From NCBI GenBank assembly GCA_009692615.1, contig SHYW01000029.1:1-49908 (forward strand): a stretch of DNA of 49,908 nucleotides, given 5' to 3'. The position numbers were made by a program, and so were the translations under genes. Origin of the DNA: Deltaproteobacteria bacterium (GTDB taxonomy: Bacteria > Desulfobacterota > Binatia > UBA9968). The notes beneath the pieces are model-generated. The model had not been told where the DNA came from and searched no databases. It worked only from the letters and a program-made list of their open reading frames with translations. This document shows, in pieces, positions 6,134 through 48,641 of the stretch; position 1 is the stretch's first letter; the number at the start of each line of letters is the position of its first letter.

Positions 6134-6565
6134 ATGTTTCAGGTCACGAACCAAGCGATCGATTTGCAGAAGCTGATCGACTACGTCACCGACCCCGAGG
6201 CCGGCGCCATCGCGACGTTTATCGGCACGACGCGCAATAGCAACGAAGGCCGCAAAGTCATCGCGCTCGACTACGAAGCTTACGGCGAGATGGCCGAGAA
6301 AGAGTTGGCGCGCATCGGCGCCGACGCGGCCAAGAACTGGCCGATCTGCCGTATGGCGATCTTGCATCGTCTGGGGCCAGTGCAGATCGGTGAAGCGAGC
6401 GTGGTGATCGCGGTTTCCTCGGCCCATCGCGATGCGGCGTTTGCCGCTAGCCGTTTCGCCATCGAAGAGATCAAGAAAACCGTGCCGATCTGGAAAAAAG
6501 AAGTATTCGAGGGCGGCGAGGTGTGGATCGGCACGCAGACCGGACAACGGCTGCCGCAGAGATAG
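6134..6565 (+). CDS. moaE: Molybdopterin synthase catalytic subunit MoaE
   Basis: A 143-residue MoaE. The family marks are the GAIATFIGTTR segment at 24-34, LDYEAYGEMAEKEL near 45-58, the HRLGPVQIGEASVVIAVSS core and the VPIWKKE motif at 117-123, whose lysines line the active site that binds cPMP and the MoaD C-terminus. The ATG at 6134 is chosen because the protein then begins exactly where MoaE does; a longer open frame begins inside moaD and is not supported. It is the last gene of moaBDE; a word-repeat hairpin with a T-tract follows 8 bp after the stop. Confidence 0.92.
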   Translation: MFQVTNQAIDLQKLIDYVTDPEAGAIATFIGTTRNSNEGRKVIALDYEAYGEMAEKELARIGADAAKNWPICRMAILHRLGPVQIGEASVVIAVSSAHRDAAFAASRFAIEEIKKTVPIWKKEVFEGGEVWIGTQTGQRLPQR

Positions 6566-6572
6566 AGAATCG

Positions 6573-6638
6573 AGACAGAGACAGAGACAGAGAGGGGGGA
6601 GGCGGAGCGGTCTCTGTCTCTTCTCTCTGTCTATTTTT
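6573..6638 (+). repeat. GACAGA-word hairpin with T-tract, terminator-like
   Basis: The left arm (6573-6593) repeats AGACAG; the right arm (6611-6632) is its near-perfect complement, pairing about 20 bp with one small bulge around a G-rich 17-base loop. TATTTTTAT follows, so it can act as an intrinsic terminator of moaBDE. It ends only 5 bases before the ATG of the next gene. It is one of four such elements in the window (others at 39112, 45563 and 46709). Confidence 0.75.
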
Positions 6639-6643
6639 ATCAC

Positions 6644-7354
6644 ATGGAACCTACATTGTTCGCCGCGTTCGGCTTGGGGCTGGTATTGGGTATTCAGCAT
6701 GCTCTCGATCCCGATCATTTGATCGCGGTGTCGACCATTGTTAGCGAGCAGAAAAATTTCAAGTGGGCTTCCCTGATCGGGGCGTTCTGGGGCTTGGGCC
6801 ATACCACAACGTTGTTTTTGGTGGGTCTAGTCGTCATCGGTTTGCGTGTGACGATTCCGCCGCGGCTGGGATCCAGCTTAGAACTCTTGGTCGCGCTGAT
6901 GTTGGTGATCCTCGGCGTCAATGTCCTGCGCAAAACCTTCGGCGCCGAGCGCGTGCATTTACATACCCATAGCCACAACCCGGAAACTCACACGCACTTT
7001 CATGTGCATGAAAACCCGCAGCAAGACCACGGCCATCTGCATCAGTTCAAAGCCATGCGCCGGCCGTTCATCGTCGGCATGGTGCACGGCTTGGCCGGCA
7101 GCGCGGCGCTCATGCTGCTGGTGTTGTCGACCATCGAATCGCCGCTTGGCGGCTTGCTCTACATCGTGATTTTCGGCTTGGGCTCGGTGGGCGGCATGCT
7201 GCTTTTGAGCGGCATCATCAGCTTGCCGTTCATTCTCACGGCGCAGCGATTCACCGTGATGAACCGCTGGATTAGAATTTGCGCCGGCATCGCCAGCATC
7301 GTTTTCGGAATATTTTTAGTCTGGGAGATCAGCACCGGGCTCGGCTTGCTTTGA
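6644..7354 (+). CDS. Nickel/cobalt transporter-like protein (NicO/UreH type)
   Basis: A 236-residue integral membrane protein with about six segments. The N-terminal GIQHALDPDHLIAV motif and GLGHTTTLF match the HX4D-like signature of nickel/cobalt permeases and UreH-type proteins; HGLAGSAALMLLVL forms the second conserved block. Between the two halves lies a loop at about residues 105-135 with many histidines (HLHTHSHNPETHTHFHVHE), a probable metal-binding loop. Nickel is the likeliest substrate, but the family also includes sulfite-exporter-like members, and no nickel enzyme gene is present here. No good ribosome-binding site precedes the ATG, which sits directly after the hairpin at 6573-6638. 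Confidence 0.75.
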   Translation: MEPTLFAAFGLGLVLGIQHALDPDHLIAVSTIVSEQKNFKWASLIGAFWGLGHTTTLFLVGLVVIGLRVTIPPRLGSSLELLVALMLVILGVNVLRKTFGAERVHLHTHSHNPETHTHFHVHENPQQDHGHLHQFKAMRRPFIVGMVHGLAGSAALMLLVLSTIESPLGGLLYIVIFGLGSVGGMLLLSGIISLPFILTAQRFTVMNRWIRICAGIASIVFGIFLVWEISTGLGLL

Positions 7355-14615: not shown

Positions 14616-14658
14616 ATTAAAAAGGCCCAGCCTGAGACGCAGACTGGGCCTTTTTAAT
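14616..14658 (-). terminator. Intrinsic terminator, bidirectional, after the OmpA-like gene
   Basis: ATTAAAAAGGCCCAG (14616-14630) pairs perfectly with CTGGGCCTTTTTAAT (14644-14658) over 15 bp, with a 13-base loop. The A- and T-tracts on the two sides let it work in either direction. It lies 16 bp after the OmpA-like stop and insulates that gene from rlmE. Confidence 0.9.
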
Positions 14659-21621: not shown

Positions 21622-21756
21622 CTGGTTCGACGTTCGTGAGACGAGAATTTTGAGCATGAAAGCAGCGTGAAGCTAATGTTGGATCAAGCGATGGAATCGG
21701 AGTCGTCAATGTCAATTGCGTCAATTGCCAGCACTACAGAGCGCGGAGGTCTGCGT

Positions 21757-24700
21757 ATGAAACGGTCGATCACAGCAGCGATGGTCGTCATGATGAGCAT
21801 GCTCTATGCGGTGTTTTGCCAAGGGCAAATCCTCGGCACGGGGCAGCTCGGCACGGCGCGCCGCAGCCACACGGCGACGCTCATGCAGGACGGCAAGATT
21901 CTCATCGTCGTCGTCGACGACGCCAACGGCCTGGTCGGCCAGGCGGAAATCTTCGATCCCGCTTCGCTCACTTCATCTAATATAGCGGCGAGTCCGATCG
22001 CTTTGCGCACCGATCACACGGCGACTTTGCTTTCTGACGGCCGCGTCTTGATCATCGGCGGTGTCGACAGCAACGGCTTGCTCGGTTCCACGGAATTTTA
22101 TAACCCTTCCAGCGTTCCCGCTCCTTCATTTAGCGCCGGCCCCGCGCTCATGCGCGCGCGCAGCGGCCATTCGGCGACAATGCTTAGCGATGGAAAAATT
22201 TTGATTGTTGGCGGCGAGTCCAGCGGCAGCGCAGAAATTTTCGATCCGGCGACGCAAAGTTTTTCACTAGCGAGCGGCAGCCTCAACACGCCACGCCAAT
22301 ACCACAGCGCGGCTTTGCTCAACAGCGGCAAAGTTCTGATCGCCGGCGGCGTGGTCGGCACCAACACCACGCTCATCTCAGCGGAAATTTACGACCCGCA
22401 AACGCAAACGTTCACTCCCGCAAGCGGCCAGATGCAAACTCCGCGCGGCTTCGCGCTGTTGCGCGTATTGCCGGACGGCAAAGTTCAAGTGATCGGCGGC
22501 GACGGCGAATTTTCCATGGAGATGTTCGATCCGGCGACCAATTCGTTCATCGCGCTCGCCCATATTCCGCTGCACCAAGATTATCTCGATAGCATTCTCG
22601 CCAGCCGCACGCGCTCGGCGTTGATCACCACGATCATCCAACAAAATCCCGTGCTCCAAGGACAGCCGGAATTGACCGCGGAAATCATCGCGCTGCTCAA
22701 TCGTTTGGATCACACGGTAACGGAAATCCCGCAGTTGAACAAAGCCTTGATCGCCGGCGGCGTCAACGACGCCGGGCAGATCTTAAATTCCGCGACAATG
22801 GTGAGCAGCTCAGCCGCGACGATCACGACCGATAAATTCGACTACGCGCCGGGCCAGACGGTCACAATCACGGGCAGCGGCTTTCAGCCGAACGAAACGG
22901 TGTGGATGCTCTTCCACGAAGAGCCGGAGACACACGCAGACGTAACGATATCTTCGGTGGCCGATGGCCAAGGAAATTTTACCAATTTGGATTTCGCGCC
23001 AGCCGAGAACGATCTAAATAGAAATTTTACGCTGACGGCGATCGGTCAGTCTTCAGGTTTTACGGCGCAGACGGCGTTTAGGGATGCGCGGCAATGGACA
23101 CTCACTCTTGCGGGAGCTGGCGCCGGCTCCGTGACGATCGACACGACTTCTGGCGCGAACCCAGGAACCGTCAATGCCCCTGTGTCTTGTGGCGGTACCG
23201 GTACCAATGTGACGTCTCAGACAGTCATGAGTACCTGCGCACCAAACATCTCTCTTTCCAACAACAGTGCGACTGGCACGTTGACAGCGACGCCCAATGG
23301 TACGTCGTTCTTCGCCGGGTGGAGCGCTGCTGCTAATTTTATAGGCTGCACTACCACGAGCCCGTGCAGCTTTAGTGTGACAGCAGCTAGTCCGGCGCTG
23401 ACCGTCACGTTCAGCCCTAGAACCGCCACAACAACGACGGCAGCGAACGCGACGTCAACTTTCAAAACAACCAGTCAGACAGTGACATTGAGTGCAACGG
23501 TGACGTCAACATCGACCGTGAACGAAGGGACAGTCACCTTTACGGTGAAGGACGGCGCGACGATGATCGGCAGCGCGACGACATCGGGCACAGTCACTGC
23601 AGGAAGCGCCAGCGTGAGCTACTCATTGCCGGCAGCTACGGCAGCGAAGGTGTATACAATTCAGGCGGTGTACAATCCGGCTGCTTCGAATCCGCGGTTC
23701 AACACGAGCAGTGACAATACCAAGACGTTAACGGTCAACGCTGCGAGCACGACAACGACCGCGGCGAATCAGACGACGACGTTCAGCACGAGCGCGCAGA
23801 ACGTGACTCTGTCGGCGACGGTGACTTCAGCGGCGGGAACGGTGAACGAAGGCACGGTTACATTTACGGTGAAAGACGGCGCGACGACGATCGGTAGCGC
23901 GACGACATCGAGCACGGTGTCCGGCGGCAACGCCAGCGTGAGTTATTCGTTACCCGCGGCGACGACGGCGAAGACGTATTCGATTCAAGCGACGTACAAT
24001 CCATCTACCAATTACACGACGAGCAGCGACAACAATAAGACTTTAACGGTCAACCCAGCAAGCACGACGACATCGGCAGCGAATCAGACGACCACGTTTA
24101 GCCAAGGCGCGCAGAACGTAACTCTTTCGGCGACGGTGACTTCGGCGGCCGGCACGGTGAACGAAGGCACGGTTACATTTACGGTGAAGGACGGCGCGAC
24201 GACGATCGGCAGCGCGACGACATCGAGCACGGTCTCCGGCGGCAACGCGAGCGTGAGTTACGCATTGCCAGCAGCGACGACGGCGAAGACGTACACGATT
24301 CAAGCGACGTACAATCCGGCTGCCTCCAATCCCAACTTTACGACCAGCAGCGACGCCACCAAAACGCTGACGATACAAAAGGCTGACACCACCACATTAG
24401 CGGCGAACAAGACGGCCACTTTCAGCAGCACCGATCAAACGGTGACTCTAACCGCGACGGTAACGTCGGCGGCCGGCACGGTGAACGAAGGGACAGTTAC
24501 GTTTACAGTGAAACAAGGCGCGACGATTATTGGCAGCCCTGTGACTTCAGCGACGATCACCACCGGCAGCGCCAGCGCTAACTTCACGTTGCCTGGCGAC
24601 ACGGCGGCGGTCACGTACACGATTGAAGCGGCCTACAGTGGCGGCACCGACTTTAACACCAGCAACGACAACACTAAGACACTTACAGTGCAGAAGGCCG

Positions 24701-27700
24701 ATACCACAACTGCAACGGTCAATGCCAGCGCTACGTTTAGCAACGCGGATCAGACCGTTTCGCTGAGCGCGACGGTAACCTCGACGGCGGGCACGGTGAA
24801 TCAAGGCACCGTGACTTTCACGATTAAAACGCTGGACGGCTTGACCACCATCGGCACTCCGATCACTTCGGCCACGGTTTCAGGCGGCAATGCGAGCGCA
24901 AGCTTCACCTTGCCTGCAAACACAGCGGCTGGGGATTATAAAATCGAAGCAGTCTACAGCGGCGGCAGTAATTTCAACGGCAGCAGCGACACCACTAAGA
25001 AGCTAACCGTAACCAAGGCAGCGATCGTAACGACGGTTACAGTCGCCGATGCGACGTACGATGCATTACCACATGGCGGCACCGCCTCGGTGACAGGTCC
25101 TGGCCTTAACCAAGCGCTGACAGTCACCTACACTGGCATCAGCGGTACCACTTATGGTCCGTCGACGACCGCGCCGACCAACGCGGGCACCTACAGCGCG
25201 TCGGCGAGCTACGCGGAGAGTGCTAACTACTTCGGCTCAAGCGACAGTAAGAACTTCACGATCAACAAGGCCGACAGCGCGACCACGCTCTCGGGCACCG
25301 GCAGCTTTACTTACGACGCTCTCGCTCATGCGGCGACCGCGAATGTCACCGGCGTTGGTGGATTGAATCAGGCAGTTCCAGTTGTTTATAGCGGCAACTG
25401 CTCCGCGGCGCCGATCAACGTGGCTGAAACTCCATGTACCGTCACGGCAACTTTCGCAGGCGATGCCAACCACAACGGTAGCAGCGCAACGGGAACAATC
25501 ACGATCACCAAGGCCACGAGCACAACGACGGTGACCGTCGTTGACGCGACCTATGACAGCAATCCGCACGGCGGCAGCGCAGTGGTGACAGGCGTGGGTG
25601 GACTCAACCAAGCGTTGACGGTTTACTACGCAGGCACGGGCAGCACCGTTTATCCTTCGTCGACAATTGCGCCGACTAACGCGGGCGATTACAGCGCTTC
25701 GGCGAGTTTTGCCGGCGACGCCAATCACAACGGTTCGAGTGATTCCAAAAACTTCACGATCAACAAAGCGGCTAGCATAACCACGGTCACAGTGGCGGGC
25801 GGCGTGTCGTTCCCCTACGACGGCAACTCGCATCCTGCGACGGTGTCTGTGACTGGCGTCGGCGGATTGAGCTTAACTCCAGCGCCGCTGTACAGCTGCG
25901 GCCATGCGCCGATCGATGTCGCGGACACCGGCTGCACGGCGAGCTACACCTACGCTGGTGACGCCAACCACAACGGTTCGAGCGATTCGAAGACCTATAC
26001 GATCACCAAAGCGGCGAGCACGACCACGGTGACCGTCTCTGATGCGACCTACGACGGCAATCCGCATGGTGGGATCGCGAGTGTCACAGGTGTTGGCGGC
26101 CTCAACCAAGCGTTGACTGTTTACTACGCCGGCACGGGCAGCACGGCTTATCCTTCGTCGACAATTGCGCCGACCAACGCGGGCACATACAGCACGTCGG
26201 CAAGTTTTGCTGGCGATGCCAATCATGACGGTTCCAGCGATTCGAAAAACTTTACGATCAACAAAGCTAACCCAATCGTCACGGCGACGGGCAATACTTG
26301 CACCTACGATGGCAACCCATGCGCGGGTAGCGGCTCGGCGATCGGCGTGCAGGGTGAAAGCCTGACGCCGGTAACGGTGGCGTACAAGGATGCGCTAAAC
26401 AATCTGCTGACCTCAGCGCCCGTGGCCGCGGGGGTGTACTTAGTGGCGGCTCGCTACGCGGGCGACGCGAACTACAACCAGAAGCAAAGCGCGCCGGCGG
26501 CGATTACGATCAACAAAGCCGCGAGCACGACGGTGGTGACGGTTGCCGATGCGACCTACGACAGCAATCCGCACGGTAGCAGCGCAGTGGTGACAGGCGC
26601 CGGTGGCCTCAATCAAGCGTTGACGGTTTACTACGCAGGCACGGGCAGCACGGTTTATCCTTCGTCGGCCATTGCGCCGATCAACGCGGGCAGCTACAGC
26701 GCGTCGGCGAGCTACGCCGGCGACGCCAACCACGATGGCAGTTCGGACTCTAAGAATTTCACGATCAACCAAGCGTTCCAGACGATCACGGTGACGCTGG
26801 AACCGCCGTTGAACGCTTACTTCGGTCAGACGTTTACGGTCGCGGCGACGGCGAACTCGGGTCTCGCGGTCTCAATCGGCAGCTCTGGAAGCTGCTCCGG
26901 TTCCGGCAGCGGCTCGGCGCTGATTACGATGAATGCGGGGTCTGGAAACTGCGCGATTACTTTCGATCAGATCGGAGATTCCAACTATCAAGCGGCGGCG
27001 CAGGTGTCGCGCAACGTCACCGCGCTCAACACCGCGCCGGTGGCGCAGGCGCAGAGCTTGACGACACCCGAAGACGCGCCGTTAGTGGTGACGTTAAGCG
27101 GCAGCGACATCGACAACAGCGGATTGACCTTCAGCATCGTCAACCTTGTCAACCTCCCGGCACATGGATCGCTCGGTATCATTGGCGCGCAGTCCTGTAC
27201 CGCGAGCGGAATCGGCGCCAACTGCACGGCGACTGTGACTTACACCCCAGCGGCTGATTTCAACGGTAGCGACAGCTTTAGCTTCAAGGTCAACGATGGC
27301 CAAGCTGATAGCAACGTCGCCGCCGTCTCGATCACGGTCAGTCCGCTGAACGATACGCCGACGGCTAATTCACAGACGGTGACGGCTAACTCTGGCGCAC
27401 CGCAGTCGATCAGCTTAACAGGGATCGACATTGAAACGCCCGACGGGTTCCTAACGTTGAAGATTGTCACGCTGCCCGGGCAAGGCACCTTGACGGATGG
27501 GCTTAATAATATTCTCGCGGTGGGCAGCACGCTCACCGGCAGCCCGGCGAGCGTAATTTACACGCCACTTTCGAGTTACGCGGGACCGGACAGCTTCAAG
27601 TTTACAGTGACAGACCGCGGCGACCCCGATGGTTGCGCGAGCGCTCCTTGCTCGCCTGCTTTGACAAGCCCGGAAGCGATGGTGTCGATCAGCGTCACGG

Positions 27701-29469
27701 ACGCGACTGCCCCTGACACGATCATCACCAGCATGCCGGCGTCGCTGAGCAACAATCCTGCCCCGACCTTTGAGTTTACGGGTACTGACAACGTGAACAC
27801 GGCGGGAGAATTAGTGTTTGAGTGTAAGCTCGACACCGGTGTTTTCCTGGCTTGCACGAGTCCAGTACATTATTCCGGCCTATCGGAAGGCGCGCACACC
27901 TTCCAAGTCCGTGCCAAAGACAGCACAGGTAATCTCGATGGCATAGAGGCGAGTTACACCTGGACGATAGATTTGACGCCTCCAGACACAGTGATCGACT
28001 CAGGTCCTTCGTCATTCAGCAATACCGCGACGGTCACCTTCACTTTCCATTCGACGGAGAACCGCAGCACGTTCCTGTGCACGGTTGACAGTTTGCCAGT
28101 GGCCTGCGGCGGTGGAACCTACACCACCGCCAGCTTGAGCGATGGCCAACACACTTTCACCGTGGCCGCCGTGGACCTGGCTGATAACGTCGATCCGACT
28201 CCTGCCACTGCGACCTGGACGATCGACACGTTGGCGCCCGATACCACCATCAACAGCAATCCAGCCAATCCGACGACCAGCACCAGCGCGACGTTCGTTT
28301 TCAGCAGCGCCAATTCGCCGGGCGACACCTACGAATGTCGTCTCGATGGAATCCCAGCTAGTTTCACGCCGTGCTCAAGCCCGGCCAGCTACACCGGTCT
28401 TGCCATGGGCACCCACACCTTCGAGGTCCGAGGTAAAGATGTTGCGGGGAACATGGAAACCAGCCCGGCCATGTACAACTGGACGATCGGCGCAGTCACG
28501 CTGGAGAACTACACCATGGACAGCAACTTCAAGCGCTTCGACGGCTTCGATGTGGTCTTTGGCAAGGGCTCGGGATCGTCTTTAAAGATCAACAGCACGA
28601 ATCCCGATTCGTTCCACTACCAGATCAAGCTGACAAACAATACCGGCACGCCGATCGGCGCCGCTTACGGCAACTTGGCGACGGCGATCATCACCGTACC
28701 CGGTTTGACCTCCTGCGGCGGCGTGCCATGTAGCACGATGATAAGTTCTTCGTTGGCAGATCCCGCTTTCATCGTTAGGGGTAAAAAGGTCGTCCATGTG
28801 TCACCCGGCCATCACGAGCGTGATGACGGCGACGATGATGACGACATGCCGGTCACGATTCAGTACAAAAGCAGTGGTAGCTGCGAGGTCAGCGGCGGCT
28901 ACAGCTCGACGCTGCCGTCGAATGGCGCGCCCAAGTGCATCAAGATCACCGGTTTCTCGATCCCGGTGAAACACGCCGCGCGCATTCGTCTCAACTTCCA
29001 ATTCCGCCTTAAGGGCACGGACGGTTGGAATGCCAATGCGCAGCAGCTCTTCTACGCGGGCTTCGTGTTCCGCGCGGCGACGTCAGTGAACTTTGGCGGG
29101 AACATTCAAACCGCTACCGACGCCACAGGCCTCGTCGGCGCTGGCAAGAAGGCGACAGCGATCGGCGGTTACGCTTTCAACAACCTGGGTGCGCCGCTCA
29201 GCGGCTACGCGGTTCGCATATTCACCAAACCTGGCTATGCCTCCTGCACGGACAACTCAAAGCTGATCGCCCAAGAATCGGTGGATACCAACGGTTTCTA
29301 CTACATCTGGCGGTCGGGCCTGAGCCAGACCAACACTAACGCGCCCAGCTTACCGTCGGGTGTGCAGTACGCGGTCCAACTCTGTAACGGCGCCACGCAG
29401 GTCGGCTTGAAGTCGATCGACAGCAAGCTGCGCGACAAGGAGTTCGAGCAAGTGGACTTCGATTTGTAA
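21757..29469 (+). CDS. Giant secreted kelch/Ig-like repeat protein (2,570 aa)
   Basis: Function unknown; probably a cell-surface or extracellular structural or adhesive protein. The ATG at 21757 is chosen because GGAGG lies 7 bases upstream and a signal peptide (MKRSITAAMVVMMSMLYAVF) follows directly; a longer frame from GTG 21667 would bury it. Approximate domain order: five kelch repeats (25-350) with GKILIVGG-type strands and FDPAT turns; a TIG/Ig-like domain (about 350-445); an InlB B-repeat-like domain with paired cysteines (445-558); five Ig-like repeats of about 105 residues (558-1088); seven MBG-like repeats (1089-1672); one Ig-like domain; two cadherin-like domains with APVAQ and TYTPAADFNGSDSF motifs (about 1757-1986); three Ig-like repeats with paired cysteines (1986-2247); and a unique 320-residue C-terminus with an Asp-rich loop (HERDDGDDDDDM), possibly calcium-binding. 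No LPXTG, TPS or autotransporter barrel is seen. A terminator follows. Confidence 0.85.
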   Translation: MKRSITAAMVVMMSMLYAVFCQGQILGTGQLGTARRSHTATLMQDGKILIVVVDDANGLVGQAEIFDPASLTSSNIAASPIALRTDHTATLLSDGRVLIIGGVDSNGLLGSTEFYNPSSVPAPSFSAGPALMRARSGHSATMLSDGKILIVGGESSGSAEIFDPATQSFSLASGSLNTPRQYHSAALLNSGKVLIAGGVVGTNTTLISAEIYDPQTQTFTPASGQMQTPRGFALLRVLPDGKVQVIGGDGEFSMEMFDPATNSFIALAHIPLHQDYLDSILASRTRSALITTIIQQNPVLQGQPELTAEIIALLNRLDHTVTEIPQLNKALIAGGVNDAGQILNSATMVSSSAATITTDKFDYAPGQTVTITGSGFQPNETVWMLFHEEPETHADVTISSVADGQGNFTNLDFAPAENDLNRNFTLTAIGQSSGFTAQTAFRDARQWTLTLAGAGAGSVTIDTTSGANPGTVNAPVSCGGTGTNVTSQTVMSTCAPNISLSNNSATGTLTATPNGTSFFAGWSAAANFIGCTTTSPCSFSVTAASPALTVTFSPRTATTTTAANATSTFKTTSQTVTLSATVTSTSTVNEGTVTFTVKDGATMIGSATTSGTVTAGSASVSYSLPAATAAKVYTIQAVYNPAASNPRFNTSSDNTKTLTVNAASTTTTAANQTTTFSTSAQNVTLSATVTSAAGTVNEGTVTFTVKDGATTIGSATTSSTVSGGNASVSYSLPAATTAKTYSIQATYNPSTNYTTSSDNNKTLTVNPASTTTSAANQTTTFSQGAQNVTLSATVTSAAGTVNEGTVTFTVKDGATTIGSATTSSTVSGGNASVSYALPAATTAKTYTIQATYNPAASNPNFTTSSDATKTLTIQKADTTTLAANKTATFSSTDQTVTLTATVTSAAGTVNEGTVTFTVKQGATIIGSPVTSATITTGSASANFTLPGDTAAVTYTIEAAYSGGTDFNTSNDNTKTLTVQKADTTTATVNASATFSNADQTVSLSATVTSTAGTVNQGTVTFTIKTLDGLTTIGTPITSATVSGGNASASFTLPANTAAGDYKIEAVYSGGSNFNGSSDTTKKLTVTKAAIVTTVTVADATYDALPHGGTASVTGPGLNQALTVTYTGISGTTYGPSTTAPTNAGTYSASASYAESANYFGSSDSKNFTINKADSATTLSGTGSFTYDALAHAATANVTGVGGLNQAVPVVYSGNCSAAPINVAETPCTVTATFAGDANHNGSSATGTITITKATSTTTVTVVDATYDSNPHGGSAVVTGVGGLNQALTVYYAGTGSTVYPSSTIAPTNAGDYSASASFAGDANHNGSSDSKNFTINKAASITTVTVAGGVSFPYDGNSHPATVSVTGVGGLSLTPAPLYSCGHAPIDVADTGCTASYTYAGDANHNGSSDSKTYTITKAASTTTVTVSDATYDGNPHGGIASVTGVGGLNQALTVYYAGTGSTAYPSSTIAPTNAGTYSTSASFAGDANHDGSSDSKNFTINKANPIVTATGNTCTYDGNPCAGSGSAIGVQGESLTPVTVAYKDALNNLLTSAPVAAGVYLVAARYAGDANYNQKQSAPAAITINKAASTTVVTVADATYDSNPHGSSAVVTGAGGLNQALTVYYAGTGSTVYPSSAIAPINAGSYSASASYAGDANHDGSSDSKNFTINQAFQTITVTLEPPLNAYFGQTFTVAATANSGLAVSIGSSGSCSGSGSGSALITMNAGSGNCAITFDQIGDSNYQAAAQVSRNVTALNTAPVAQAQSLTTPEDAPLVVTLSGSDIDNSGLTFSIVNLVNLPAHGSLGIIGAQSCTASGIGANCTATVTYTPAADFNGSDSFSFKVNDGQADSNVAAVSITVSPLNDTPTANSQTVTANSGAPQSISLTGIDIETPDGFLTLKIVTLPGQGTLTDGLNNILAVGSTLTGSPASVIYTPLSSYAGPDSFKFTVTDRGDPDGCASAPCSPALTSPEAMVSISVTDATAPDTIITSMPASLSNNPAPTFEFTGTDNVNTAGELVFECKLDTGVFLACTSPVHYSGLSEGAHTFQVRAKDSTGNLDGIEASYTWTIDLTPPDTVIDSGPSSFSNTATVTFTFHSTENRSTFLCTVDSLPVACGGGTYTTASLSDGQHTFTVAAVDLADNVDPTPATATWTIDTLAPDTTINSNPANPTTSTSATFVFSSANSPGDTYECRLDGIPASFTPCSSPASYTGLAMGTHTFEVRGKDVAGNMETSPAMYNWTIGAVTLENYTMDSNFKRFDGFDVVFGKGSGSSLKINSTNPDSFHYQIKLTNNTGTPIGAAYGNLATAIITVPGLTSCGGVPCSTMISSSLADPAFIVRGKKVVHVSPGHHERDDGDDDDDMPVTIQYKSSGSCEVSGGYSSTLPSNGAPKCIKITGFSIPVKHAARIRLNFQFRLKGTDGWNANAQQLFYAGFVFRAATSVNFGGNIQTATDATGLVGAGKKATAIGGYAFNNLGAPLSGYAVRIFTKPGYASCTDNSKLIAQESVDTNGFYYIWRSGLSQTNTNAPSLPSGVQYAVQLCNGATQVGLKSIDSKLRDKEFEQVDFDL
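23430..25020 (+). repeat. Five in-frame Ig-like repeats (about 315 bp unit)
   Basis: Five tandem copies of a domain of about 105 residues with the core TVTFTVKDGATTIGSATTS. Copies 2 and 3 are nearly identical at DNA level over about 100 bp, offset by 315 bp (23851 versus 24166); copies 1, 4 and 5 are more diverged. This shows recent duplication or homogenisation inside the gene. Confidence 0.85.
25022..26776 (+). repeat. Seven MBG-like repeats in alternating A-B order
   Basis: Seven repeats of about 83 residues. Repeats 1, 3, 5 and 7 (type A) share LNQALTVYYAGTGSTVYPSS-like sequence and DSKNFTINKA ends. Repeats 2, 4 and 6 (type B) are shorter or diverged and carry two cysteines each. Equivalent positions in successive A copies lie about 498-507 bp apart, so the duplicated unit was a two-domain A-B block. 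Confidence 0.8.
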
Positions 29470-38311: not shown

Positions 38312-39109
38312 ATGCGTTGCGAGGAAGCCCAAGAACTGATCACGGCGCGAGTCGACAACGAGCTGCGCGCTGACGAACGAGTCGCTATCGACGCGCATTT
38401 AAAAATTTGCGCCGATTGCGCGCTGACGTTCGAGCAGGAAAGTCTCTTGAAGCGGCAGATCCAAGCCAGCAGCCAGGAGGTTACGGCGCCGCTGGCGCTG
38501 CGTCGCGAGATCGAAGGCAAGCTCGCCGGCCGTGAATCCAGACAGGCGGCGCGATTCGGCGCGTGGTTCGAAGCTTTCACCTGGCGGCCGACCATTGCGT
38601 TGGCGGCTGTGCTGATTGCGGCAGCGACGCTGCTTTACGTGAAATGGCCAGCGCCGAACGTCGGCATGGCGGCATTGGCGACGCATCAAAAGATTCTCAG
38701 CGGCAAAACTACTTTGGTTCGTTCCAACGATCCGGTTGAAGTACGGCGTAAATTGGCGCGCGCGGTGGGCGAGCGCTTTCAGCCGGTGGTGTTGGATTTC
38801 TCGATGATGAAGCTCTACCCGGTCGCGGGCTTCGTCGAGCGCATCGGCGGCCGCGAAGTGTTAGTGACGGTTTACCAAGGTGAAGGTCCGGCGGTCACCT
38901 GCTTTACCTTTCTCGGCGGCGAAACCGACGCGCCCGGCGAAGCGGAAAAGTTCTACGACTCCGACATGCGGCTTAACTTCTACTCGTTTTCGCGCGATGG
39001 CCTGAACGGCGTGCTGCATCGCGAAGGCGGCGTGATCTGTTTGCTAGTTTCAAAAATGGCGCCGGCGGATTTGCTGGCCTTGCTGCGCGGCAAATCGGCG
39101 CACGCGTGA
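38312..39109 (+). CDS. Anti-sigma factor with zf-HC2 domain
   Basis: A 265-residue membrane-bound anti-sigma factor. The N-terminal zinc finger has C3, H29, C33 and C36 (CEEAQ and HLKICADC), the form that binds and inhibits ECF sigma factors. One membrane segment lies at about 92-110. The C-terminal domain of about 150 residues, outside the cytoplasm, looks sensor-like; its VDF/YPVAGFVERIGGREVLVTVYQG segment recalls DUF-type anti-sigma tails, and I know no ligand. It is directly downstream of the sigma gene. A word-repeat hairpin begins 2 bp after its stop. Confidence 0.85.
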   Translation: MRCEEAQELITARVDNELRADERVAIDAHLKICADCALTFEQESLLKRQIQASSQEVTAPLALRREIEGKLAGRESRQAARFGAWFEAFTWRPTIALAAVLIAAATLLYVKWPAPNVGMAALATHQKILSGKTTLVRSNDPVEVRRKLARAVGERFQPVVLDFSMMKLYPVAGFVERIGGREVLVTVYQGEGPAVTCFTFLGGETDAPGEAEKFYDSDMRLNFYSFSRDGLNGVLHREGGVICLLVSKMAPADLLALLRGKSAHA

Positions 39110-39111
39110 TC

Positions 39112-39205
39112 GGGTGGGATTGGAGTGTTGGAGTATTGGAATGATGGAGTGATGGTTCGGTCCGGATCGCCCAACACTCCAGCACTCCACACTCCAATCT
39201 CCCAG
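39112..39205. repeat. TGGAGT-word inverted repeat after the anti-sigma gene
   Basis: TGGAGTGTTGG (39121-39131) is fully complementary to CCAACACTCCA (39171-39181), and ATTGGAGTGT (39119-39128) to ACACTCCAAT (39189-39198). Both arms are built from variants of the word TGGAGT[G/A]TT. It starts 2 bp after the anti-sigma stop and ends just before the tRNA promoter. No T-tract follows. Confidence 0.75.
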
Positions 39206-39267: not shown

Positions 39268-39342
<75 letters not shown>

Positions 39343-45134: not shown

Positions 45135-45560
45135 TTAGAAATTGCCCCAACTCGTCACCCGCACGGGTGTGATCGCGATCATTGGCCGCTTGCCGATGGC
45201 CATGGTCCAGTACTGGGGATATTTTTTGCGCAATCGTTGCACGGCTCGCCGATGGTTTTCGCCGCGGCTTAACACGCGCGCTTTGCCGAATACCAGAACG
45301 TAAGCCAGCTTGCGCCAGTCTTCATCATAACGATCGATGACCAAAGCGACGTTGGGATTTTCGGCGATGTTCTTCAGCCGCTTGAGTTTGCTCGGCGCGG
45401 CGCGTTTGGGTTTCTCGTCGATGGGCGAGAAGAATCGTTTGCCGTCGTAGACGAAACAGATCGGAATGACGTGGGGCTGGCCGGAGTTGTCTGACGTCGC
45501 GAGATGCGCCGTGCGGGCGGAGCGGAGAAGGCGCGAGGCACGAGCCGTGAGGAGCGACAT
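45135..45560 (-). CDS. PPOX-class, probable F420-dependent oxidoreductase (Rv0121-like)
   Basis: A 141-residue split-barrel flavin/F420-binding protein. HLATSDNSGQPHVIPICFVYDG near 27-48, then KPKRAAPSKLKRLKNIAENPNVALVIDRYDEDWRKLAYVLVFGKARV, is the pattern of the TIGR03668 (Rv0121) group. The cofactor, F420 or FMN, cannot be decided here. I place the start at ATG 45560; the longer frame begins inside a repeated hairpin (45563-45657) and its extra ten residues are not credible. It is the only gene between glnE and that hairpin. Confidence 0.78.
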   Translation of the reverse strand: MSLLTARASRLLRSARTAHLATSDNSGQPHVIPICFVYDGKRFFSPIDEKPKRAAPSKLKRLKNIAENPNVALVIDRYDEDWRKLAYVLVFGKARVLSRGENHRRAVQRLRKKYPQYWTMAIGKRPMIAITPVRVTSWGNF

Positions 45561-45562
45561 AA

Positions 45563-45657
45563 AAGGCGATAGGCAGCAGGCATTAGGCAATAGTGAGCAG
45601 CAAAGAGTCTCGGAATTCTCCTCTTACTATTGCCTGTTGCCTCATGCCTATTGCCTT
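45563..45657. repeat. AGGCAATAGGCAT-word inverted repeat
   Basis: A 35-base arm (45563-45597) faces its imperfect complement (45623-45657) with about 29 of 35 positions matching and a 25-base loop. Both arms are made of the word AGGCA[A/T]TAGGCA. The element starts 1 bp after the stop of the binding-protein-fold gene on the minus strand and ends 2 bp before the next ATG. Confidence 0.8.
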
Positions 45658-45658
45658 C

Positions 45659-46651
45659 CTAGATCTTAAACTCTCCCACCACATTGGGCGCGAAGATTTC
45701 TTCGACGGTGAGTTTGCGCGCCAACAAACCCTGGTCGCCCATGTAGCGAATTAAATGTTCGAGCAAGTGGCGGTTGGCTTCGACGCCGTAGGGCCACCAG
45801 TCGGGACCGAAGATCTCGCGCATCTGTTCGCGCTCCCAAGGCAGCCACGGCAGGGTGCAGGCCATGGTGTTCGAGATGTGCATGTTTCTAATCGCTACGT
45901 CTTTGGCTTCGCAAAAGGCTTTGTACAGGCTGCGGGCGATCCATTGGTTTTTTTCGTAGACTTCTTTCTTGATCACCAACACATGCATGATCGGAAACAT
46001 TTTCGTGCGTTTGTAATATTCGATTTCCACGTCTTTGTAGTTGGGGAACAAGCGCTTTACTTTGGGACTGCCTTTGACGAAGCATGACGGCGCGCGCGCC
46101 GAAATCAGCGCGTCGATCTCGCCGCTCTCCAACATTCCATTCAACGTTTTGTCATCGGCGATCGGGTCGAGTTTGATTTCCGGCGGCAGGGTGAGCTTGA
46201 CCCGCTCTTTTCGGCCGGCTTCTTCCTGGCCGCCGGTAAACCAGTGCATGTCGGCGGTCTTGACGCCGTAGTCGTCGTTCAAAAAGCCGCGAATCCACAC
46301 CGCCGCGGTGATCGAATATTCCGGCGCGCCGATTTTCTTGCCTTTGAAATCGGCCGCCGTTTTGATGCCCGAGTCGGTGTTGATGAACACGCACGAGTGG
46401 CGGAAGTAACGCGACGGAAAAATCGGGATGGCGACAAACGGCGAGTTGCCGCGGCTGATCATGGTGACGTGATTGGACAACGACATTTCCGAAACGTCGA
46501 ATTCCTGATGATGGCCCATGCGCCAGAAAATCTCTTCGGCTTCCAGCGGCACGTAGTTGATGCGAATGCCTTCAGCTTGCACGTCGCCGGTGCGCAGCGC
46601 GACGGTGCGGTCGTAGTTGCCGCAGCCGACGGTTAGAAATAATTTTTCCAC
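45659..46651 (-). CDS. 4,5-dihydroxyphthalate-decarboxylase-like / binding-protein-fold protein
   Basis: A 330-residue paralog of the protein at 39504-40475. FLTVGCGNYDRTVALRTGDV, FDVSEMSLSNHVTMISRG, FVAIPIFPSRYFRHS and DFKGKKIGAPEY are the shared blocks, and both end with an L-x-V-E-E-M/I-F motif. It has no signal peptide. It may be a decarboxylase-like enzyme or a small-molecule binder. The start is GTG with GGGAGG 8 bases upstream. It lies downstream of the iron-type ABC operon, separated by a word-repeat hairpin. Confidence 0.72.
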   Translation of the reverse strand: MEKLFLTVGCGNYDRTVALRTGDVQAEGIRINYVPLEAEEIFWRMGHHQEFDVSEMSLSNHVTMISRGNSPFVAIPIFPSRYFRHSCVFINTDSGIKTAADFKGKKIGAPEYSITAAVWIRGFLNDDYGVKTADMHWFTGGQEEAGRKERVKLTLPPEIKLDPIADDKTLNGMLESGEIDALISARAPSCFVKGSPKVKRLFPNYKDVEIEYYKRTKMFPIMHVLVIKKEVYEKNQWIARSLYKAFCEAKDVAIRNMHISNTMACTLPWLPWEREQMREIFGPDWWPYGVEANRHLLEHLIRYMGDQGLLARKLTVEEIFAPNVVGEFKI

Positions 46652-46708: not shown

Positions 46709-46880
46709 AAATCCGAAATTCGAATATCGAAAGCGGCCCCGCGGATCGAAACAAACGAGGGCCAAACAAAACCCAAAGAAAATCCAAAACGCCGAATCCG
46801 AATAGTCCGTGCTTGGAACATTCCCTTTGTTTTTGGTCATTTGAATTTGTTTTGGATTTCGTGCTTCGAAATTCGGATTT
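46709..46880. repeat. CGAAATTCGAAT-word nested inverted repeat
   Basis: AAATCCGAAATTCGAA (46709-46724) pairs with the complement at 46865-46880 (15 of 16), and nested inside AAATCCAAAAC (46780-46790) pairs perfectly with GTTTTGGATTT (46849-46859). The whole 230-bp gap between the permease and the binding-protein-fold gene is built of such AT-rich words. The element starts 3 bp after the permease stop. Confidence 0.75.
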
Positions 46881-46883
46881 GTC

Positions 46884-48641
46884 TTACTTCGTGTCCCAGC
46901 GCGAGTAGCGTTGGGCGATGGCGATTAGAATTACCGAAATCAGCGAGATGACCAGACCGATGGCGGCGACTCGGCCGCGCATACCGTCTAAATAGAGAAA
47001 ATAAAGCAGCGGGCCGAGCGGTTCGGCGCCGGGGCTGTATAAAAATAACGTCGCGCTGAACTCGCGCATGAAGATGGTCACGAGAATGATCCAGCCGGCC
47101 ATCACGCCGGGACGCATCATCGGAATCAATATGCGCCGAAAGGTGGCGAGAAATCCGGCGCCGCAGACGATGGAGGCTTCTTCCAATTCTTTGTGCACTT
47201 GGATGATCGTGCTGGTGACGGCACGCAGGCCGTAGGGCAAAAAGCGGGTGACGTAGGCGATGAGAATGATCCAGATCGTCGCATAAACCGGAATCGGAAA
47301 ATCGACATAGGCCCAGAGCAATCCTAGCGCCATGGCCGTGCCGGGAAACGCCCAAGGGATGAATACCAAACCTTCGATCAAGCCGCGCCCGGCGATTTTC
47401 GTTCTAACGGTAATGTAGGCGGCCAGCGACGCCAGCAACATGCACAGCGTGGCGCCGACCAGCGAGAGGATCAGACTATTGATAAACGCCTTGTGGACGC
47501 GCGGCGTGGCCCAGACATATTGAAAATGCGAGAGAGTTAAATTGTGCCAGGTCTGCCAGGTCGGCACGTGGTAGTAGGGGAGGATTGACACTAACGTTAA
47601 AACTAAAATCGGCAACACGACTAGCAGGATTAGCAAAAAGAATGCGACACCGGTGGCGGCGTAGCGCCAGGGGCCGAGCTCGATCTGGTGCGGGCGAAAG
47701 CCTTTGCCGGTGACCGTAGAAAATGACTCTACTTGGGAAGTGAAGCGTCGATAGAGATAGACGAAGAACAAGGCGACGAAGAGAATGCCGACACCGTAGG
47801 CGGCGGCGAGGTTGTGATTGGTCGGAAACGAGCCCAACGCTTCGCGCCAAATCTTCGTCGTGAAGACTTCGATGCGCGCGGGCAGGGCGATGATCGCCGG
47901 CGTGTCGAAACTCTCCACGGCACGGACGAAGTTCAGCGTTCCCGCGGCGAGGATTGCCGGTCGGATGAGCGGGAAGGTTATGCGGTGCATGACGCCGAAT
48001 TCGTTCGATCCCAAAGTCTTGGCCGATTCTTCCAGCGACGGGTCCATGCTTTTCATTGCCGCGGCGACGATCAAAAACGCCAGCGGCGTCAGGATCAGTG
48101 CCTCGACGAAGATCAACCCCGGCATGGAGTAGATGTTGAACGGCCCCTTCTCCATGCCAAAGAGCCTCACGAACAGGCCGTTGATCAAACCATTGCTCGG
48201 GTTGAGCAACATCACCCAGGAGATCGAAACTAAGATCGGCGGCAAGATGTTTGGGATGATCGCCGTCAATTCAAACAAGCGGCGCCAGGGCGCGTCGGTG
48301 CGGATCGTGATCCACGCCAACGCCAGCGCGAAGAGCACCGAAAGTCCCGAAGCGCCGATGCCGAAGATGAACGAGTTCAACATCAGCGAATAGGCTTCGG
48401 GATCGCTGTAGGCTTTGACGTAGTTTTGCAGCGTGAAGTGGCCGGGGACTCCCAGCGGCGCGTCGGTGAGGCTGCCGTAAAAAAGAAAATAGGTCGGGTA
48501 GAGACTAAGAAAGGCGATGATGCCGCCGACGATGAGAAACACCCAACTGATCGGTTGGCTCAAGAACGCACCGACGCGGGAGCGACTCCAGGCTGAAGTC
48601 AGCGGCGGCTCGCCAGCAATAATAGTTTGGTCGACCGACAC
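46884..48641 (-). CDS. ABC transporter permease, fused two-domain (iron/Fbp-type)
   Basis: A 585-residue permease with two homologous halves and about 12 membrane segments, as in FbpB/AfuB-type ferric-iron importers. Each half has the EAA-loop for the ATPase: EESAKTLGSNEFGVMHRITFP in the first and EEASIVCGAGFLATFRRILIP in the second. It starts 12 bp after the stop of the binding-protein gene on the same strand, clearly one operon. No ATPase gene follows; the next gene is the binding-protein-fold paralog at 45659. Confidence 0.88.
   Translation of the reverse strand: MSVDQTIIAGEPPLTSAWSRSRVGAFLSQPISWVFLIVGGIIAFLSLYPTYFLFYGSLTDAPLGVPGHFTLQNYVKAYSDPEAYSLMLNSFIFGIGASGLSVLFALALAWITIRTDAPWRRLFELTAIIPNILPPILVSISWVMLLNPSNGLINGLFVRLFGMEKGPFNIYSMPGLIFVEALILTPLAFLIVAAAMKSMDPSLEESAKTLGSNEFGVMHRITFPLIRPAILAAGTLNFVRAVESFDTPAIIALPARIEVFTTKIWREALGSFPTNHNLAAAYGVGILFVALFFVYLYRRFTSQVESFSTVTGKGFRPHQIELGPWRYAATGVAFFLLILLVVLPILVLTLVSILPYYHVPTWQTWHNLTLSHFQYVWATPRVHKAFINSLILSLVGATLCMLLASLAAYITVRTKIAGRGLIEGLVFIPWAFPGTAMALGLLWAYVDFPIPVYATIWIILIAYVTRFLPYGLRAVTSTIIQVHKELEEASIVCGAGFLATFRRILIPMMRPGVMAGWIILVTIFMREFSATLFLYSPGAEPLGPLLYFLYLDGMRGRVAAIGLVISLISVILIAIAQRYSRWDTK

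Follow-up and report, generated by a model that had tools for sequence, protein, structure and literature searches.

We report that a genome of the Binatia (Desulfobacterota) carries hairpins whose two arms are inverted arrays of short degenerate words, that pure word arrays of this kind lie close behind stop codons, and that at the same junctions in related genomes such hairpins are found with the same, with drifted or with different words. Each word combines an invariant core with free letters, here as in the related genomes, and neighbouring words are identical less often than expected. We tentatively interpret these elements, at a little under even confidence, as old, tolerated DNA hairpins of degenerate words in the spacer from a stop codon to the following gene, with the words spread by copying. 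With them, concerted change of inverted word arrays can be put to the test: site and hairpin stay while the words change together. They also separate structure from sequence in a hardly described kind of bacterial repeat. Three measures (core versus free letters, neighbour non-identity and a loop tag) are given by which such repeats can be recognised elsewhere and, if confirmed at the strain level, the findings would reveal how such hairpins originate and are maintained downstream of genes.

Genome, sample and hairpin scan

The window, i.e. the whole stretch of DNA that was analysed (49,908 nucleotides), is one whole contig (C29) of an assembly of 5.05 Mb in 186 contigs that is 98.7% complete. 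The relatives used for comparison are Candidatus Binatia bins; orthologs of the gene adjoining the hairpin at 46709 (79-94% identity) were found in metagenome bins titled Candidatus Binatia, Deltaproteobacteria and, in one case, Syntrophobacter, and groundwater is named in several of these titles. The last ~115 bases of the contig (window 49760-49876) match many contig ends of the relative G004 at 86-90%, and bases 35-148 of contig C11 (stretch L080) match the same places in G004; assemblies of the genus hence seem to break at a common repeat.

Sixty stretches of 20 kb and the window, 1.25 Mb of the genome, were searched for hairpins using an arm-alignment scan. The number of hairpins over the threshold was 190 compared with 4 in shuffled sequence, and these were intergenic in 149 of 190 and 2 of 4 cases, respectively. 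Genes were called with a hexamer model of the genome itself, and start codons are therefore less certain than stops. The hairpins fall into many families: class A, i.e. arrays of words of mostly 7-8 bases (TGGAGTRN, AGGCANN, ATTCCAR, GAGACA, GTTTCGN and others), arrays of 9-base words (CACGAAGNN, CGCAAAG, CACGGAG) and families whose sequence is fixed (GTCATTCCGGC, CTTCGACNNGCTCAG, GTAGGGGC, CCCTTTGAAAAAGGG), of which the GTAGGGGC hairpins look like REPs. Class A was set post hoc, after the list had been viewed and partly through exclusion of the named families by pattern. Clustering gave 23 vocabularies, with family sizes that are not free of bias (nor are those of a further set of word arrays used for wobble counts) since loci L001-L069 were recruited by searches for these families; most vocabularies besides ATTCGAA, TGGAGT and AGGCA are single in the sample, and the words of these three have dispersed copies in the genome. 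Unlike the other families, L110:3882-3958 is an inverted repeat of 38 bp without mismatch, has a loop of a single base and is situated between two start codons.

Four hairpins in the window

The hairpins of the window and the features next to them are as follows (hairpins and word runs carry no strand; arms by alignment).

6134..6565, plus strand, MoaE gene upstream of the 6573 hairpin (Pfam MoaE, E 1.5e-41)
6573..6632, GAGACA word hairpin, arms 6573-6593/6611-6632
38312..39109, plus strand, gene with a zf-HC2 zinc-finger domain upstream of the 39118 hairpin
39118..39199, TGGAGTRN word hairpin, arms 39118-39147/39171-39199
45530..45556, GAGGC word run beside the 45563 hairpin (by eye)
45563..45657, AGGCANN word hairpin, arms 45563-45597/45623-45657
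45659..46651, minus strand, phosphonate-type substrate-binding protein-like gene (weak; Pfam Phosphonate-bd 22.1 bits, below the cut-off of 27)
46709..46880, ATTCGAA/CCGAAA inverted element of 172 bp, arms 46709-46732/46857-46880
46884..48641, minus strand, ABC transporter permease gene (Pfam BPD_transp_1, E 4e-22), whose orthologs placed the junction

The elements at 6573, 39118 and 45563 are clean inverted word arrays. The GAGACA hairpin, which has few relatives within its own genome, occupies most of the spacer between the TAG ending at 6565 and the start codon at 6644. The TGGAGTRN hairpin, which has a family in the genome, follows the TGA ending at 39109 and lies ahead of a tRNA-Gly(CCC) gene (39268-39342); its start is 39118 for the aligned stem and was 39112 in the first reading. 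The AGGCANN hairpin fills the spacer from the minus-strand TAG (45659-45661) to the next start codon, and this TAG ends the gene that lies downstream of the permease gene. The run of GAGGC words next to it resembles, by eye, the arms at the same junction in the relatives G004 and G009 and may be a relic of an older vocabulary. The right end of the fourth element is 3 bp from the minus-strand TAA (46884-46886) of the permease gene. RNA folds of the four hairpins on both strands gave z values between -2.6 and -8.6 against 200 shuffles. Reading, arm alignment and these folds thus confirm the original prediction that the four hairpins are real and that each directly follows a stop codon.

An Rfam search matched nothing but the tRNA. 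Terminator-type motifs (G+C-rich stem and T run) between 38900 and 47200 numbered 18 compared with 11.8 in shuffles; few were within hairpins, and two matches, one per strand, were inside the 46709 element. Elsewhere in the window there is a near-perfect, terminator-like palindrome of 43 bases, whose ends are runs of A and T, between two minus-strand genes (14616-14658), and an open frame of 2600 amino acids (21667-29469) that includes a 315-base tandem repeat in 2.5 copies (23518-24318).

The 46709 element differs from the other three in being a member of a dispersed family of 170-bp palindromes. Relatives were found at 13 other places in the genome (at least 140 of 201 query bases covered, 67-81% identity), and the four sampled members are 3 (the focal element), 29, 57 and 59 bp from a stop codon, so the closeness of the focal element to its stop may be due to chance. 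At the orthologous junction the ATTCGAA family is absent from all 15 listed spacers of relatives. The element is more readily understood as belonging to a dispersed palindrome family, and as having taken a place where relatives have other words.

Anatomy of words and loops

The words are 7-9 bases long and consist of a fixed core and one or two free letters. Among 81 class A elements the best repeat lag was 7 in 43 and 8 in 24, and it was 9 in 31 of 65 elements with nine-base words. When the two arms were compared, by a phase fit that in itself favours the core, mismatches for TGGAGTRN were 1-9% at the six core positions and 27% and 60% at the last two; corresponding values for core and free positions were 2-8% and 44% plus 31% for AGGCANN, 2-11% and 31% plus 33% for CACGAAGNN, and 0-19% and 50% for ATTCCAR (5 elements). 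Of the 158 letters at position 7 of TGGAGTRN, 151 were purines (A or G).

In-register pairs of free letters, arm against arm, agreed near chance for TGGAGTNN (9/47, 7.2 expected) and CACGAAGNN (7/26, 7.6 expected) and above chance for AGGCANN (8/20, 4.5 expected; reached in 232 of 5000 trials); when the first free letter of TGGAGTNN was considered by itself, 32 of 47 pairs agreed (23.0 expected). Adjacent TGGAGT words were identical in only 7 of 117 cases where 19.0 (sd 3.8) were expected, a value as low as this appearing in 1 of 3000 shuffles. No effect was seen at distance two (10/69 and 11.2), and at distance three there was a slight excess (8/25 and 4.1). Non-identity of neighbours went in the same direction for CACGAAG (0/21, 4.8 expected) and AGGCA (2/32, 6.6 expected).

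Being inverted repeats, the word hairpins read alike on both strands. The 5' arm has more G than C in 19 of the 23 vocabularies, the reverse in 3 and neither in 1. Moreover, CGGA or TCCG is present in the loops of 41 of 62 class A elements, where intergenic controls gave 10.7 (sd 2.7); for nine-base-word elements the count was 28 of 47 loops compared with 7.8.

Placement relative to stop codons

Both neighbouring genes were known for 144 hairpins, including 32 of class A (three of them from the window) and 87 of other families, among which the 46709 element was counted here. The class A hairpins were distributed over 29 same-direction and 3 convergent gaps and were absent from divergent gaps; the latter make up 124 of the 599 gaps of at least 70 bp, and the chance of finding none there is 6e-4 by number and 3e-5 by room. 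In the same-direction gaps 21 of 29 were at most 10 bp from the stop codon, compared with 13.9 (sd 2.0) under uniform placement in the same gaps, and without the window 18 of 26 (12.4 expected; reached in 12 of 3000 trials). The excess near stops was also present when bases at the start codon were kept free: 17/23 against 11.5 for 8 bp (3 of 3000), 11/16 against 6.6 for 12 bp (21 of 3000) and 8/11 against 4.0 for 20 bp (8 of 3000). Omission of the window weakened the 12-bp result (10/15 against 6.6; 86 of 3000). When three ATTCGAA elements, and one CGCAAAG element that the same pattern had picked up, were moved into class A, 22 of 32 were within 10 bp (14.3 expected).

The other families are likewise rare in divergent gaps (5/87); in same-direction gaps they showed no excess at stops (14/66, 12.7 expected). 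The stop rule is thus real for pure word arrays but does not extend to every hairpin of this genome. Consequently, the suggestion that one placement rule governs unrelated words, for which a comparison of hairpin-stop distances with random placement had been proposed, holds for the pure word arrays and fails for the other families, with which the 46709 element was counted. An exception among the word hairpins is junction 10 of L122, where the hairpins of the two genomes compared are 8 bp from the next start codon and that of our genome is 76 bp from the stop. Clustering behind stop codons is as such known for stem-loops and REPs (PMC1590033, PMC3733652).

Orthologous junctions with the same or other words

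We compared 208 syntenic junction pairs over 72 junctions of the genome; 172 of the pairs are in same-direction gaps. Among the stretches of our genome, L080, L084 and L094 were picked as queries for their several word hairpins. Junctions with N numbers may come from genomes that also have a G number (identical spacers of more than 30 bases were dropped), and L256 and L258-L260, with proteins of 32-33% identity, were left out of the ortholog loci. With class A taken to include the 46709 element for these counts, a relative had a hairpin in 17 of the 52 same-direction pairs in which our genome had one and in 3 of the 120 in which it had none (Fisher 1e-7, for pairs that are not independent). 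One or more relatives likewise had a word hairpin at ten of the 11 junctions where our genome has one.

Where our genome has AGGCANN words, at the 45563 junction, those of the relatives are GAGGCGN in G001 (and in G004, as judged by eye), GGATGGA in G010, TGCAAAA in G007, TTAGGGG in G006 and GAGGATGGAGAATCGA-like words in N248; G008, N249 and N253 have short spacers with no hairpin, and N246 and N251 are under the threshold. The 46709 junction carries GGATNGA words in G010 and G005, CGTGNT words in G007 and G009, a one-armed array in G004 and G001 (by eye) and a CGCAAAG-type hairpin in N248. No hairpin was found there in G006, G008, N244, N245, N246, N250 and N251, and N253 is under the threshold.

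For 18 pairs of hairpins at the same junction, reading of the list gave 4 with the same words, 7 of intermediate similarity and 7 with little or none; in these last 7, replacement is as likely as drift. The mean similarity of the 18 pairs was 0.555 compared with 0.325 when permuted (0 of 5000 reach), and the 14 pairs with different vocabularies still gave 0.400 compared with 0.290 (sd 0.033; 12 of 5000 reach). The best alignments keep the 7-base register and the centre while the words of both arms change. Specifically, at junction 7 of L122 the centre GTTAACTC is common, with one short gap elsewhere, and TCTGGCG is changed to TTTTGCG/TTTCGGG, and at junction 14 of L094 GTTTCGN of our genome corresponds to GTCTAGN in G001, in both arms and around a common centre. 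The left arm in G001 at the latter junction also has GTTTGGA and GTTTAGC, which by eye look intermediate. That a hairpin is kept at a junction with other words points to copying or rewriting of the words at the site itself. We found no in-place word change of this kind in the mainly open-access literature on tandem, heptamer and octanucleotide repeats, repeats of Binatota, REPs and RAYTs, quasipalindromes and concerted evolution of inverted repeats. The new part is accordingly the change of words at orthologous places; inverted pairs of word arrays are themselves already known from Geobacter.

Distribution beyond this genome

Of 395 genomes of the phylum, 14 contain the pattern TGGAGTRNTGGAGTRNTGGAGT. 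Our genome has 79 matches, three genomes of other families have 213, 76 and 34, and each of the other ten has 1-15; with the control, the same pattern reversed, there were 2 matches, both in one genome. Twelve TGGAGT loci, one of them our own, were fetched, and the distances in bp of the exact double word to the closest stop were 5, 6, 16, 19, 58, 68, 109, 183, 223 and 281, as measured with genes called by the model of our genome and from array ends, which are not hairpin ends. Locus L345 (G161:C5:3036-3057) has its array between two start codons, and L348 lacks a left neighbour. As far as shown the stop rule therefore holds for this family only, and the TGGAGT arrays at the loci from other families do not clearly hug stops. 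The genome with 213 matches is G161, of another family, in which placement may differ.

A plasmid search with one TGGAGT hairpin gave no match, and a scan of viral contigs for the TGGAGT pattern returned 38 stretches. In three of the IMG/VR contigs (L358, L371, L383) the words form direct runs at 24-base spacing and are perhaps coding repeats. For the CACGAAG hairpin (L080:6553-6634) there are many copies of about 90% identity in the relative G002, where this family looks recently active.

Writers, mobility and RNA-level tests

Across the genome, which is 98.7% complete, the profile PF00078 (RVT_1) had no match at E≤0.001, compared with matches in 3 of 14 control genomes, and a reverse-transcriptase writer was therefore rejected. 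Two Y1_Tnp (RAYT-like) genes were identified (L068, C78:2693-3025; L069, C21:44397-44720), and by eye no class A words were seen in the 660 and 720 bases around them; a RAYT writer was rejected. There was no strongly conserved letter, such as in a GTAG or CGTC type of outer end, within 15 bp outside the 81 class A elements (162 flanks). The idea of a common writing mechanism with a linked reverse transcriptase or RAYT is thus not borne out. The words GGGTCAGG in front of the second Y1 gene resemble the hairpins L114:4581 and L118:16933, and these are perhaps the true REPs of that transposase. The target duplication expected of MITE or IS remnants was not seen: the longest common flank word averaged 3.27 compared with 3.21 for mispaired flanks of the 81 class A elements, whose ends are uncertain by a few bases.

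On the sense strand the mismatches of class A comprised 63 G.U and 74 A.C, i.e. no excess of G.U, and a further set of word arrays gave 116 G.U and 109 A.C. At junction 10 of L122 a terminator-like stem with a T run, common to both genomes, is situated between the stop codon and the word hairpins, which differ between the two genomes, and the hairpin is therefore probably outside the upstream transcript. Selection of the structure at the RNA level, as had been proposed, is supported neither by the wobble counts nor by this junction.

Comparison with known repeats

Heptamer repeats known from other bacteria include the cyanobacterial STRR. The closest likeness is to the Gmet_I classes 1-3 of Geobacter metallireducens, described as 3-5 tandem degenerate words of 7-9 bases (GTTGCTYN, TCTCCGTS[Y], MTYCTGA) that are multicopy and mostly paired, in classes 1 and 2 on opposite strands (PMC2700814). 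They are reported as predicted sites of a global regulator, possibly IHF/HU, and are called unique to that genome (PMC2700814). Both systems consist of inverted pairs of tandem, partly degenerate 7-9-mers, GTTGCTYN has the same 6+2 build as TGGAGTRN, and by eye the class 2 consensus resembles our CTCCGTG/CACGGAG family; Gmet_I has three vocabularies, whereas here there are 23, with pure word arrays near stops and with words that change at orthologous junctions (PMC2700814). The consulted parts of that report hold no statement on the distance of Gmet_I arrays from stop codons.

Those GGGNATC heptamer arrays of Xanthomonas and Nostoc that follow genes are reported to lie mostly within 50 bp of the stop or to overlap it (PMC4692102), and TAACTGA heptamers of Beggiatoaceae and cyanobacteria mainly before start codons (PMC4679880). 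Both are tandem, mainly intergenic 7-base words as in our genome, but they are described as direct arrays (with one indirect repeat for TAACTGA) and not as inverted pairs (PMC4692102, PMC4679880). REPs are palindromic, multicopy elements that follow genes and occupy chiefly same-direction and convergent gaps, and are reported to form two super-families with a GTAG or CGTC end (PMC3733652); class A resembles them in palindromy, copy number and gap type and differs in having no common outer end and no link to Y1 genes that we could see. Template-switch mutation, a replication error described as creating and mending hairpins and as making two arms alike (PMC8794818), could bring a new word from one arm to the other but should copy the free letters too, and these are near chance in two of three vocabularies.

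Origin and maintenance of the word hairpins

The tentative explanation given at the outset draws on the placement, the persistence at 10 of 11 junctions, the residual homology between hairpins with different words, the pruning expected from slippage and the lack of RNA asymmetry. A new word variant would arise in one hairpin and spread through both arms by template switching or conversion between words or arms during replication, and some vocabularies would also be copied to other junctions. Slippage would remove identical neighbours so that mixed arrays survive, and selection would clear hairpins from promoters and genes while sparing those behind stops; the hairpin would require no particular word and probably no dedicated enzyme. 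Several data argue against such copying. The arms are not plain copies, as judged from free letters near chance where simple template switching should copy both free letters, and the low variation of the cores (1-9% for TGGAGT compared with 27% and 60%) looks like core constraint. Of all observations, the common CGGA/TCCG loop tag, which copying leaves unexplained, and the near-chance free letters fit worst. In addition, 7 of 18 same-junction pairs lack clear residual similarity, TGGAGT arrays of other families do not clearly hug stops, and the patchy occurrence of TGGAGT (79 matches here, 213 elsewhere, 14 of 395 genomes) suggests that some vocabularies spread by another route.

In a rival account the vocabularies are separate small mobile palindrome families (REP/MITE-like) that insert repeatedly at the few harmless places, the spacers behind stops, a reading that we regard as possible but rather doubtful for the word hairpins as a whole. 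The recurrence of TGGAGT, AGGCA and ATTCGAA words at many genome places, a patchy, high-copy distribution over families and the lack of ATTCGAA at the 46709 junction of relatives are in keeping with it, as is the avoidance of divergent gaps known from REPs (PMC3733652). Furthermore, junctions 8 and 9 of L084 hold TGGAGT, GTCATGCC or REP-like hairpins across relatives, and at junction 8 G002 has a scrap of TGGAGT beside another element. It does, however, leave the residual homology of different-word hairpins at one junction unaccounted for, and neither target duplication, a conserved outer end nor class A words beside the two Y1 genes were seen. Mobile families explain the dispersal of TGGAGT, AGGCA and ATTCGAA better than copying in place does, and may be the true account of these and of the focal element. 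Word arrays serving as binding sites of a protein that binds DNA or RNA (HU/IHF or cold-shock type) and that reads the core and ignores the free letters would explain the fixed phase of core and free letters in four vocabularies, have a parallel in the opposite-strand pairs of Geobacter GTTGCTYN (PMC2700814) and agree with the reported binding of heptamers one by one by CspB (PMC4679880); we consider this unlikely given the many unrelated vocabularies per genome and the switching of some orthologous junctions within the genus, which a fixed protein would forbid. Equally improbable in our judgement is a transcribed hairpin that protects or terminates the upstream mRNA, with the structure selected and the sequence free: stable folds, placement behind stops, absence from divergent gaps and persistence with other words at two window junctions in several genera would all follow, but the absence of a G.U excess, the often mismatched free letters and the hairpin behind a terminator-like stem at L122 junction 10 speak against it. 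Finally, one system might sense the hairpin shape and the CGGA/TCCG loop tag and rewrite or seed word arrays of any vocabulary behind stops; fixed-core words would then be its product, and vocabularies would turn over between species while the site stays. We give this last possibility little credence.
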